DNA from: Geothrix sp.
Lineage (GTDB): Bacteria; Acidobacteriota; Holophagae; Holophagales; Holophagaceae
Direction: 5' to 3'
Length of the DNA stretch: 64,000 nt
Assembly (NCBI RefSeq): GCF_030219325.1
Contig: NZ_CP126625.1
Location: forward strand, 1,724,857-1,788,856
Numbering within the stretch: position 1 is the first letter of the stretch; each line of letters opens with the position of its first letter. A program made the translations under genes and the position numbers. Below the pieces are notes generated by a model, which was not told the DNA's origin, did not search any database, and was given only the letters and a program-made list of their open reading frames with translations. Shown one piece after another: positions 19,690-26,866 of this stretch.

Positions 19690-19754
19690 GGTGGATCACC
19701 ACCCCTCGACCCCTCCCCCGTCTGCCTCTGATGGACCCAACCCCACAAGGAACC

Positions 19755-22472
<2,718 letters not shown>

Positions 22473-22503: not shown

Positions 22504-25500
22504 ATGAGCGAAGGCATTGAAGGCGCCCGCGACCTCGTCCCGGACCCGTCCCGGGCCGAGACCCTGGCGGATCAGACCGACCGGCCCTCCGATCCCAACC
22601 TGTCGCAGGCGGAGACCTATGCGGGCGACTCCTCCGCATTCGAGGGGCCACCGCGTCCCCGCCCCGGGAAGGAGCCCGACTTCCCCGTGAAAGACTGGGA
22701 CCGGTACGAGTTCCTGGGCTTCCTGGGCCAGGGTGGCATGGGCATGGTCTTCCTCGCCCGGGATCGCAAGCTCGGGCGCGAGGTGGCCATCAAGTTCGTG
22801 CGCCTGGAGGATGAGCGACACCTGCAGCGCTTCATGGTGGAAGCCCGCGCCCAGGCACGGGTGGACCACGAGCATGTCTGCAAGGTCTTCGAAGTCGGCG
22901 AGGTCGAGGGCCGGGTCTTCATCACCATGCAGCGCATCACTGGCGACTCTCTGGATGTGGCGACTTCGGGCCTGTCCCTGGAACAGAAGGTCATCGCCCT
23001 GCGGGACGCGGCCCGGGGCGTGCACGAGGCCCACCGCGTGGGCATCATCCACCGGGATCTGAAACCGTCGAACATCATGGTCGAGCGGGGGGAGGATGGC
23101 GCGCTGCGGACCTTCGTCATGGACTTCGGCCTGGCCCGCGAGTGGAACCAGGACGTCACGGAGACCGGCTCGGTGCTCGGCACACCCGCCTACATGTCGC
23201 CGGAGCAGGCCCGGGGCGAGCTCGACCTGCTGGACCGGCGTACGGACATCTACAGCCTGGGCGCCACGCTCTACCAGGTGACCACCGGCCGCCCGCCCGT
23301 CCCGGGCGCCAACGCGCTGGAGATCCTCAGCGCCATCGGCTCGGTGGACATCCAGCCCATGCGGGTCCACAGCCTGGACATCCCCAGGGACCTGGAGGCC
23401 ATCACCCTCAAGTGCCTGGAGAAGGACCGCGCTCGGCGCTATGACTCCGCCAAGGCCCTGGCCGATGACCTGGACCGGTTTCTCGCGGGTGAGTCCGTCG
23501 TGGCGCGGCATGCCGGCCTCATCTACCGCACGCATCGCCGGTTCATGCGCCACAAGGCACTGGCCATCACTGGCACCGTGGCCGTGGTCCTGGTGCTCCT
23601 GGCCCTGGGCCTGGCCCTCAAGACCCGCCGGGACGCGGCCCGCCGGGAGCGCCTGGCCCAGCAGTTCATGGAGTCCATGGCCCGCATCGAATCACTGGCG
23701 AGGTATTCGGCCCTTTCCCCCCTGCATGACATCCGGCCCGACCTGCAGACCGTCCGGGCCCACATGACCCAGCTGCAGGAAGACATGCGACGGGCGGGTG
23801 CCCTGGCCAACGGACCCGGCCACTATGCCCTGGGCCGCGGGTACCTGACGCTGGACGACCAGGAGAAGGCCCGAGAGCATCTCCAGATGGCCTGGGACGC
23901 CGGGTATCGCGAGCCGCGAGTGGCTTTCGCGTTGGCCCTGGTACTGGGCCACCAGTACCAGGAAAAGCTCCTGGAAGCGGAGCGCATGCCATCGGCGGAT
24001 CAGCGCGAGGCGCGAACGCGGCAGATCGACGCCACCCTGCGCACCCCGACCCTCGGCTTCCTTCGGCAGGCCCGGGGGGCGGACGTGCCTTCGCCCGCCT
24101 ACCTGGAAGCGCTCATGGCGTTCTACGAAGGGCGGCTCGATGAGGCGCTGGCGCGGCTGAAGGCACTGGGAAGCGAACTGCCCTGGTTCTTCGAGGCCCC
24201 GCTGCTCCGGGGCTCGCTCCTGCAGGCCCGGGCCTGGACTTGGTGGAACCAGGGAAAGCCAGAGGCCGCGCTCGCGGACTTCGAGACCGGCCGTCGCGAC
24301 CTGGCCGCTGCCGCGGCCAGTGGGCGCAGCGCACCGGCCGCCTACGCGGCGCTCGCGGAGCTGGAGCTCAACGCGCTGATCATGGAGAAGTACGGCCAGG
24401 GCCAAGTGCGGCCCGCCTTCGAGCGGGGCATGGCGGCCGTGAGGCAGGCCCTGGCGGCGCAACCCGACCATGTGGCCTCGCTGATTCTCCAGGCCGCCCT
24501 CCTTGGGCAGTACGCCGACTCCCTGACGACGCGCGGCGAGAACGCCGACGCCCTGGTGCAGGAGGCGGTGGCGGTGGCCTGGCAGGCGCAGCGCGCAGGC
24601 CCAGCCCGGGTGGACGCCTGGGTGGCCCTCGGCAAGGCCTACTACCAATGGGGCAATGCCCGGCAGGAGAAGAACCTGGATCCCACGGAGCAGCTGGAGA
24701 AAGGGCTGAAGGCGCTCGAATCCCTGTCTCTGGAGAAACGGGATTACACGGTGGAGAACCACCTCGGCCTCATCCACCAGACCTGGTCAGATTACGAGGA
24801 CCAGCAGGGCAGGGACCCCTCGGGCCACCTGAGCGGCGCCATCGCGGCCTATGAGCGGGCCACGCAGATGGAGCCGCACCTGCTGCCGGCCTGGATCAAC
24901 CTGGGTACGTGCCTCCAGCAGCGGGCTGGGCTGCCGCGGGCGGCCGACCCGGAGGCCGACCTGCAGACGGCCCTCCAGGTGCTGGCGCAGGCCCACACCC
25001 TGAACCCCAGGCATTTCGTCCCCTACTACGTGCAGGGGAAGGTGCTGTTCAGCTTGGCGCTGCGCAAACAGGAGCGGGGCGAGAACCCGGAACCTGACCT
25101 GCTGCAGTCGGTGGACGCGAACCGCCGGGGGCTGGCCATCAACGCGGGCATTCCCCACCTGCACAATGGCGTGGGGGTGGCCCAGCTGCTCCTGGCGCGC
25201 CAGGCCTGGGATACCGGACGCGATCCGAAACCCTTCCTCGCCGGTGCTGATCGCGCGTTCCGCAAGGCCATCGAGGTGGCTCCGAAGCAGGTGCTCGGCT
25301 ACATCAACCTGGGTGACCTGCTCATCTGGAAGGCCCGGCATGGCCAGGGGGCCATCGACCTCCAGGCGGCCCTGGAGGCCGAGACCATGCTGCGCAGAGG
25401 CCTGGCCGTGTCTCCTGGCGATCAGGGCTCTCTGGTGAACCTGGGACGGCTGGCGGCCGTCCGCGTCGAAGGGAGCCTCCGGCATGGCGGTGAGTTCGCT

Positions 25501-26028
25501 TCGTTCCAGGCTGGCGGGGAGGCGGTCCTGGCCAAGGTGCTGACCCGCGATCCCCGGCACCGCGACGCCCTCGAGTATCTGGGCGAGCTGCGGACCGCCG
25601 CTGCCATGGCGAAGGCCCGCCGGGGTCAGGCCCAGGCGAAGGATTTCGAAGTGGCCGACCAGATCCTGGCCAGGGCCCTGGAGATCCTTCCGGATTCACA
25701 GGAATCCTGGCTGCAGCGGGCCCGCCTCTGTCTGGCCCGCGCGGAGTGGGAGCGGAGCACGGCCCGGGATCCGGCTCCCAGCCTGGCGTCCGGGGAAGCC
25801 TGCCTGGCCCGCGTCCTGAAGGTCCGGCCGAAGCTGGGCGAGGCCATCGCCCTGCAGGGGGCCCTGAAACTGGAGGAGGCCAGGAGCCTTTCCGCATCCT
25901 CCAGGACGCGACGAGTCGAGGAGGCCCAGCAGGCCTTCCGCGAGGCCTTTTCCCTCAACCGGAACCTGATGGGGGAGTGGAAATCCCTGGCGGACTCCAC
26001 CCAGTCCCTGGCGCGGCCAGCCTCGTGA
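22504..26028 (+). CDS. Ser/Thr protein kinase with membrane helix and large TPR-type domain
   Basis: 1174 residues from ATG 22504; the longer open frame upstream overlaps the preceding kinase and is not used. A proline- and acid-rich N-terminal tail (1-65) precedes the kinase (about 67-330): LGQGGMGMV, K97, HRDLKPSN with D185, DFGLAREW and GTPAYMSPEQ. A membrane helix lies near 350-372 (ALAITGTVAVVLVLLALGLA). The remaining 800 residues are helical repeats of the TPR kind, e.g. GHYALGRGYLTLDDQEKARE and HLLPAWINLGTCLQQRAG, ending in GEWKSLADSTQSLA. It resembles the Pkn-TPR kinases of Acidobacteria and Myxobacteria. The TPR region probably binds partner proteins. Confidence 0.92.
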   Translation: MSEGIEGARDLVPDPSRAETLADQTDRPSDPNLSQAETYAGDSSAFEGPPRPRPGKEPDFPVKDWDRYEFLGFLGQGGMGMVFLARDRKLGREVAIKFVRLEDERHLQRFMVEARAQARVDHEHVCKVFEVGEVEGRVFITMQRITGDSLDVATSGLSLEQKVIALRDAARGVHEAHRVGIIHRDLKPSNIMVERGEDGALRTFVMDFGLAREWNQDVTETGSVLGTPAYMSPEQARGELDLLDRRTDIYSLGATLYQVTTGRPPVPGANALEILSAIGSVDIQPMRVHSLDIPRDLEAITLKCLEKDRARRYDSAKALADDLDRFLAGESVVARHAGLIYRTHRRFMRHKALAITGTVAVVLVLLALGLALKTRRDAARRERLAQQFMESMARIESLARYSALSPLHDIRPDLQTVRAHMTQLQEDMRRAGALANGPGHYALGRGYLTLDDQEKAREHLQMAWDAGYREPRVAFALALVLGHQYQEKLLEAERMPSADQREARTRQIDATLRTPTLGFLRQARGADVPSPAYLEALMAFYEGRLDEALARLKALGSELPWFFEAPLLRGSLLQARAWTWWNQGKPEAALADFETGRRDLAAAAASGRSAPAAYAALAELELNALIMEKYGQGQVRPAFERGMAAVRQALAAQPDHVASLILQAALLGQYADSLTTRGENADALVQEAVAVAWQAQRAGPARVDAWVALGKAYYQWGNARQEKNLDPTEQLEKGLKALESLSLEKRDYTVENHLGLIHQTWSDYEDQQGRDPSGHLSGAIAAYERATQMEPHLLPAWINLGTCLQQRAGLPRAADPEADLQTALQVLAQAHTLNPRHFVPYYVQGKVLFSLALRKQERGENPEPDLLQSVDANRRGLAINAGIPHLHNGVGVAQLLLARQAWDTGRDPKPFLAGADRAFRKAIEVAPKQVLGYINLGDLLIWKARHGQGAIDLQAALEAETMLRRGLAVSPGDQGSLVNLGRLAAVRVEGSLRHGGEFASFQAGGEAVLAKVLTRDPRHRDALEYLGELRTAAAMAKARRGQAQAKDFEVADQILARALEILPDSQESWLQRARLCLARAEWERSTARDPAPSLASGEACLARVLKVRPKLGEAIALQGALKLEEARSLSASSRTRRVEEAQQAFREAFSLNRNLMGEWKSLADSTQSLARPAS

Positions 26029-26057
26029 TCAGGGTTCCGCGGAGAGCCGGGGCTTGG

Positions 26058-26204
26058 TCAGCCCGTCACCTTGATGGTGCCCGTGCCGCCGGTCGTTGCC
26101 TTCGGCATGATGGACAGACTGGCCTCGAGGGCGGCCTGGGCCTGCTCCGGGCTGGGCTCCGGCGCGGGGTTCTCCGGTTCCTCGTGGGTGGGCTTGGGAG
26201 ACAT
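26058..26204 (-). CDS. Small 48-residue protein, unknown function
   Basis: A 49-codon frame on the minus strand, convergent with the TPR kinase and divergent from the cyclophilin. ATG 26204 has a perfect AGGAGG 5 nt before it, a strong argument for translation. The product starts MSPKPTHEEPENPAPEPSPE (acidic, Pro-rich, disordered), continues with a short Ala-rich helix (QAQAALEASLSIM) and ends with ATTGGTGTIKVTG, a Gly/Thr/Val tail. There is no signal peptide or membrane helix. The charged leader followed by a small Gly/Thr-rich C terminus resembles precursor-peptide architecture, but no modifying enzyme or transporter is adjacent. Real but unassigned. Confidence 0.6.
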   Translation of the reverse strand: MSPKPTHEEPENPAPEPSPEQAQAALEASLSIMPKATTGGTGTIKVTG

Positions 26205-26235
26205 GGGAACCTCCTGATGGAAAGGGGAGAAGGGT

Positions 26236-26261
26236 CCAGGATTCTGAGACTCAAATCCTGG
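26236..26261. promoter_or_regulatory. Inverted repeat in the leader of the 48-residue gene
   Basis: CCAGGATT ... AATCCTGG arms enclosing TGAG-A-CTCA, giving a nearly continuous 12-bp stem with one unpaired C. It lies 32-57 nt upstream of the small gene's ATG and about 145 nt upstream of the cyclophilin start, so it could be an operator or an mRNA leader hairpin. Confidence 0.45.
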
Positions 26262-26404
26262 TGGAGTTGGAACTGGGCCAAGCCTAGTCGCTTCATGGAG
26301 AAAACCAAAGGATTTTGTCGGGACAGCTTTCCGGGGGATAGAAGTTGATGCTGACTCAGACGAGGGTGGAACCTATCCTGATGGTTTGACCGAAAGAGGT
26401 GACC

Positions 26405-26866
26405 ATGACCCGCGTGCTCTTCCAGACCGACAAGGGCGACATCAACCTGGACCTGTTCCCGAAGGAGGCGCCGGGCACTGTGGCGAACTTCGTGAAGCTC
26501 ATCGAAGCGGGCTTCTACGATGGCCTGGCCTTCCACCGCGTGATCCCCGACTTCGTCATCCAGGGTGGCTGCCCCAACACCAAGGCCGGCGCCTCGGGCA
26601 TGCCCGGTACTGGCGGCCCCGGCTGGAAGATCAAGTGCGAGACGGCCGGCAATCCCCACAAGCACAAGCTGGGCGCCCTCTCCATGGCCCACGCGGGCCC
26701 GAACACGGGCGGCAGCCAGTTCTTCATCTGCAACGGCAGCGCCCCCAGCCACCTCGATGGCGTCCACACGGTCTTCGGCCAGTGCGCCTCTGAGGCAGAC
26801 GTCAAGGTCGTCCAGGCCATCAAGGCCAACGACCGGATCGTCAAAGCGACGGTGGTGGAAGCGTAG
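26405..26866 (+). CDS. ppiB: Cyclophilin-type peptidyl-prolyl cis-trans isomerase
   Basis: 153 residues, no signal peptide, so cytoplasmic. Cyclophilin landmarks: [19 protein letters not shown] (catalytic Arg in FHRV), [15 protein letters not shown], and [11 protein letters not shown]; the usual tryptophan of that last site is replaced by H in this class. It catalyses prolyl isomerisation in protein folding. ATG 26405 is preferred over GTG 26399 since the GAGGTGA site overlaps the GTG. Monocistronic by appearance: own upstream region and a 15-bp terminator hairpin behind it. Confidence 0.93.

Follow-up and report, generated by a model that had tools for sequence, protein, structure and literature searches.

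The 64,000-nucleotide stretch of Geothrix sp. DNA analysed here (hereafter the window) contains a 48-amino-acid gene which belongs to a family of small proteins with a common C-terminal tail of nine residues, and which accompanies a TPR Ser/Thr kinase from genome to genome. We see about an even chance that its product is a cytoplasmic partner of this kinase and that the tail is the element recognised or phosphorylated, a mechanism that we infer from the genes. To our knowledge, bacterial TPR Ser/Thr kinases are common and few of them have known partners. A partner gene tied to its kinase and pared to a nine-residue tail would offer a directly testable peptide, and would illustrate the reduction of a domain protein to a microprotein of the kind that family libraries overlook. 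The main features are as follows.

26058..26204, minus strand: 48-amino-acid gene, short form of the kinase-linked small-protein family (family search, codon-position GC)
26210..26215, minus strand: ribosome-binding site AGGAGG, five bases ahead of the ATG
26061..26087, minus strand: conserved nine-residue tail GTGTIKVTG directly ahead of the stop (motif in 22/22 members; pS/pN)
22534..26028, plus strand: partner Ser/Thr kinase with a Pkinase domain, one membrane segment and TPR repeats (start codon provisional)

The first-pass annotation had described a 48-codon frame whose ATG follows AGGAGG at a distance of five bases and whose N-terminal half is acidic and Pro-rich, and this description is correct in each respect. 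The frame runs on the minus strand from the ATG at 26204 to the TGA at 26058, residues 1-24 include seven Pro and five Glu, and the protein ends in ATTGGTGTIKVTG. The gene converges with the TPR kinase gene (stop at 26028, some 30 bp distant) and diverges from a cyclophilin gene with its ATG at 26405. The GC content at the three codon positions is 0.61/0.59/0.90. The AGGAGG match is unremarkable taken alone, as the window holds two such matches against 0.71 expected (at least two in 20 of 100 shuffles), the other one being the opening of a 396-amino-acid gene. The case for the gene is thus built on comparison, and it is conservation in other genomes that lifts the frame beyond chance. With the conserved tail, the linkage to the kinase in 21/21 genomes and the codon test on the tail, the earlier proposal of a real small protein gene is now well supported. 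The 48-residue protein has no match in Pfam or NCBIfam, only chance-level matches were seen in the search for a second copy in its own genome, and we found no mention of the gene in the literature searched.

Family members were sought in all 77 genomes of the host's family, and a gene of the same small-protein family with the same C-terminal tail was found in 22 of them. Full-length relatives sharing the end occur in nine genomes including that of the window, with profile E values of 3.3e-21 or lower. Searching for the tail and its stop codon with a DNA pattern gave matches in 11/77 genomes (reversed control 0) and added two members, G032, with a 57-amino-acid form, and G030, in which the tail closes a different protein of 112 amino acids at the same genomic place. 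The complete set of 22 came from reading downstream of each kinase, together with G032. The window gene has both features by which the family is defined here, the tail motif and the position convergent to a TPR kinase. Two forms can be distinguished, eleven of each.

Domain forms, 97-118 amino acids: G004, G005, G006, G008, G009, G012, G013, G027, G030, G044, G049
Short forms, 45-57 amino acids: G000 (the window's own genome), G017, G021, G028, G032, G039, G040, G041, G046, G047, G048

In the short forms, an unconserved linker takes the place of the fold, and its net charge ranges from -3 (acidic) in the window protein to +12 (strongly basic) in G047. The family appears to be restricted in its distribution. 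With the short-form profile, strong matches in a phylum sample of 396 genomes were confined to the window's genus; weaker ones (0.0065-0.05, 12 genomes of that sample) were taken as chance. The domain-form profile recovered, among the 77 genomes, the same eleven domain forms plus a partial one in G059, and, in the phylum sample, 9/396 genomes, namely eight of the window's genus and G059. The partial gene of G059, which belongs to another genus, is the beginning of a domain-form gene that is cut off by the contig end (L110 1-98); it was left out of the 22 members, and no piece of the kinase was found in G059.

The first-pass annotation had pointed to the end of the protein as the part whose conservation should be looked at, and it is here that the family is most coherent. 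The motif x-[TSA]-G-[ST]-[IV]-x-V-[TNS]-[GR]-stop is present in 22/22 members in the form of 13 distinct 9-mers, and in every one of the 22 it abuts the stop codon exactly. Across the last nine codons, synonymous differences (pS 0.28, 21.0/74.7 sites) far exceed non-synonymous ones (pN 0.07, 14.0/195.3 sites; p ~2e-5), as measured on ten disjoint, not fully independent pairs covering 20/22 members (G027 and G039 omitted). Purifying selection acts on the tail. No constraint is detectable in the N-terminal half when distant pairs are compared, with non-synonymous change per site equal or nearly equal to synonymous change. Whole-frame ratios among nine short forms range accordingly from 0.19 to 1.16. 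It had been suggested beforehand that a ratio near 1 would speak against the gene; such values were indeed reached over the whole frame in comparisons with G041, G017, G039 and G048 (0.93-1.16), a consequence of the free evolution of the N-terminal half, but not with G021 and G028 (0.23-0.27), and the tail itself is selected. The free evolution of the N-terminal half in distant pairs is what one would expect if the short forms were functionless, decaying leftovers of a domain protein. We consider this very unlikely, since the tail is under purifying selection, the start codon, ribosome site, promoter-like box and frame are retained in nine short-form genomes, and the separate short form of G047 has kept the tail as well.

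There is good support for linkage of the small gene to the TPR Ser/Thr kinase and not to the cyclophilin. Close kinase orthologues (56-100% identity) are present in 21/77 genomes and remote ones (32-33%) in two. All 21 genomes with a close orthologue contain the small gene, directly convergent with the kinase in 20; in the remaining one, G041, the kinase end and the small gene lie 189 and 520 bases, respectively, from the ends of different contigs. Among same-genus genomes that lack the kinase, the small gene was found in 1/26, namely G032. A Fisher test of 21/0 versus 1/25 gives 2e-12, which overstates the linkage because the genomes are related and their co-occurrence counts are not independent. 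Moreover, the three family searches applied to kinase-less genomes all missed G047, which was found by position alone, so some of the absences may be false. The cyclophilin adjoins the small gene in only 7/22 members, and the association with the kinase persists through different genomic settings, which argues that kinase and small gene travel as a unit. No other constant neighbour was seen beside the family genes, and no modification or export gene is kept with them.

Several observations on these loci may be added. In two genomes, a ten-base tandem array (TTCATCGGTG) lies between kinase and small gene (G039 and G040; L040 3071-3210 and L038 6454-6543), and related sequence adjoins the small gene in G017 and G041. 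In the window, the TPR kinase is directly preceded by another Ser/Thr kinase (19731-22472, plus strand), which carries PD40 beta-propeller repeats; this pair is kept in G028 and G046, and the TPR kinase stands apart from the PD40 kinase in several others. As for the two remote kinases, that of G060, a genome of another genus, has a convergent 100-amino-acid gene three bases from its stop (L101 3576-3878, minus strand), which looks unrelated and has no tail but is possibly a parallel partner; no convergent small gene was seen in G052.

The case of G032 bears on what the tail does. Here the small gene is intact and adjoins a kinase remnant (53-56% identity over 91-98 amino acids); at L074 1531-1900 the TPR kinase is reduced to its last 90-odd residues, followed by unrelated sequence. 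This persistence without an intact kinase counts against reading the small protein as a kinase partner, and it would fit a tail with its role elsewhere, such as a recognition tag read by a protease or a different partner, with the kinase regulating that route or being linked on other grounds. A short, terminal, conserved tail borne by unrelated N-termini would also suit such a tag. Nevertheless, the kinase is the only constant neighbour, and in the window's own genome nothing else carries the tail pattern with its stop, so we regard this explanation as unlikely.

How the tail came to stand almost alone can be traced through the domain forms. The 112-amino-acid form is predicted to be a beta sandwich (pTM 0.64, mean pLDDT 69, about 80 in the core) with a disordered tail (pLDDT about 30). 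The model of the 97-amino-acid form makes a beta strand of the tail, with low confidence (about 48), so that in domain forms the tail may be just the last strand. Structural comparison gave a best VIA Z of 5.5 (e.g. PDB 4hcf; 83 residues aligned, rmsd 3.3), and the 50 structural matches listed are mainly cupredoxin-type folds. Sequence-based searches returned less: Pfam Cupredoxin_1 matched 3/11 domain forms (best E 0.038), a PDB sequence search gave only matches at E 0.65-0.98, one of them a stellacyanin, NCBIfam yielded weak, scattered matches only, and Foldseek found no match for the domain-form model at E<=0.001. The copper ligands of cupredoxins are His, Cys, His and Met; these are not conserved in the domain forms, which have one invariant Cys and neither an invariant His nor, beyond the start, an invariant Met. 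Thus, a cupredoxin-like fold followed by the tail has weak to moderate support from the models for the domain forms, and the likeness to Cupredoxin_1-like domains is limited to the predicted fold of these forms, the window protein having no domain.

On a tree of 23 kinases, in which G032 is unplaced because its kinase is gone, the distribution of the short form requires two changes (5-95% bootstrap range 2-2). Nine short forms make up one clade, sister to the domain-form G027 (97/93), and G047 falls apart from it, its exact place being weakly supported. The simplest history would be an ancestral domain form followed by at least two losses, each of which kept the tail. Evolution appears, then, to have stripped this gene at least twice to little beyond nine residues, and the window's short form would be what remained after loss of the fold.

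In the short forms the tail is the sole conserved part, it was retained when the rest was lost, more than once, and it accompanies the kinase; from this we infer that the kinase handles it. The pattern of conservation suggests the tail as the target of recognition or phosphorylation by the kinase. The kinase has a single predicted membrane segment, between the kinase domain and the TPR part, and no membrane segment was predicted in the small proteins examined, so the two are expected to meet on the kinase-domain side. With ordinary topology the TPR part would then be outside, and a small protein lacking an export signal would come into contact with the kinase domain. In the proposed mechanism, the product of the 48-amino-acid gene would be a small cytoplasmic partner of the neighbouring membrane-bound kinase, its last nine residues would be the working part, presented to the kinase domain in the cytoplasm, and the N-terminal fold, where present, would be a dispensable carrier. 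A candidate phosphate acceptor is the Ser/Thr that is invariant in G-[ST]-[IV]-x-V; it would either be phosphorylated or be held as a pseudosubstrate, and the small protein would be an output of the kinase (a phospho-switch) or a brake on it. The first-pass annotation had offered a small regulator of the kinase as one option, and this option is made plausible by the linkage in 21/21 genomes and the conserved tail, although regulation as such is still a conjecture.

The same topology bears on a different placement of the tail. As it sits exactly at the stop in 22/22 members and the kinase carries many TPR repeats, its free C-terminus might dock into a groove of the TPR repeats instead of serving as a substrate for the kinase domain, and in PknG the TPR domain regulates substrate phosphorylation (PMC8546545). 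However, the predicted membrane segment would put the TPR part outside the cytoplasm and the small protein is without an export signal, so we consider TPR docking unlikely.

A more specific, and in our view rather improbable, version of contact with the kinase domain would make the tail a decoy of the activation loop (T-G-[ST]-[IV]), evolved on a small beta-sandwich protein and released at least twice as a nearly naked peptide, disordered and either competing for the autophosphorylation activity of the kinase or receiving it. The activation-loop piece ETGSVLGTP belongs to the five most tail-like kinase windows in 21/21 orthologues; this likeness was spotted afterwards, ranks first in only 1/21 kinases, and counts about once because the loop is nearly identical in all orthologues. 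For handling of the tail by the kinase in general, as for the decoy, we take it as a hint only.

Two further roles that had been raised for the small gene fared less well than the kinase partner. A secreted factor is unsupported, as simple hydropathy reveals no hydrophobic N-terminal segment or export signal in the 48-residue protein (maximum 19-residue mean 0.39). The small size and the Gly/Thr-rich end would agree with a precursor from which a signalling or modified peptide is made, but here the C-terminus is conserved and the N-terminus varies, no modification or export gene is constantly kept alongside, and there is no family match; we judge this role extremely unlikely.

Among known systems, two offer working parallels to a cytoplasmic kinase partner. 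In OdhI and GarA, a beta-sandwich is combined with a flexible segment that is phosphorylated, the phosphosite being in the N-terminal tail. They carry an FHA domain, whereas the present family has a C-terminal tail with a cupredoxin-like fold or none, and FHA was not matched by Pfam in the window protein nor seen among the matches of the 11 domain forms. PknG of Actinobacteria, a Ser/Thr kinase with TPR repeats, phosphorylates this small dedicated partner (PMC8546545). The likeness lies in the combination of a TPR Ser/Thr kinase with a small partner, a role that in our case is deduced from the genes; unlike PknG-OdhI/GarA, the kinase here has a membrane segment and is directly linked to the small gene. 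In Streptococcus suis, the small protein CcpS is phosphorylated by the membrane Ser/Thr kinase Stk1 on a Thr in a flexible end, near the N-terminus, and binds the phosphatase CpsB (PMC10148854). The likeness to CcpS-Stk1 is one of description, with the phosphosite near the N-terminus there and the tail C-terminal here. By analogy, PknG-OdhI and Stk1-CcpS would be the nearest parallels, and the small gene is filed in neither family. We would describe the present genes as a new and lineage-restricted family of probable partners for a kinase of a known type, unusual in its reduction to a tail.

The leader of the small gene contains two further elements.

26236..26261, minus strand: 26-base dyad CCAGGATTTGAGTCTCAGAATCCTGG, with the core GAG[AT]CTC in 11/22 family leaders
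26281..26286, minus strand: promoter -10-like TAGGCT, 81-87 bases ahead of the start codon

TAGGCT is exact in 18/22 leaders, with one-base variants, admitted after looking, in three more; the candidate -35, TTGGTT at 26303-26308, is weak (3/6 matches). The dyad corresponds to the inverted repeat that the first-pass annotation had noticed, and the covariance check proposed for it gave a modest signal. In ten of the eleven leaders with GAG[AT]CTC (G039 omitted as a near-copy of G040), 4/9 pairs have changed on both sides, a value reached by 5/500 shuffles and exceeding slid controls. Pairing is found in 76.7% of cells; with 23% unpaired, an RNA hairpin was rejected as the sole account of the leader. 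Rfam at gathering score gave no match over 25800-26500. The genome has a single perfect copy of the 21-base dyad consensus, which makes a wide regulon unlikely. Given the covariation, this uniqueness, and the different predicted hairpins that several other members have at a similar place in the leader, the dyad is likely a gene-specific cis element, either a hairpin or a protein-binding site, and together with the promoter-like box it would set the small gene's own expression. Its 13-base core is found in 8/77 genomes, once in each, lying ahead of a family gene in seven of them and elsewhere in G056.
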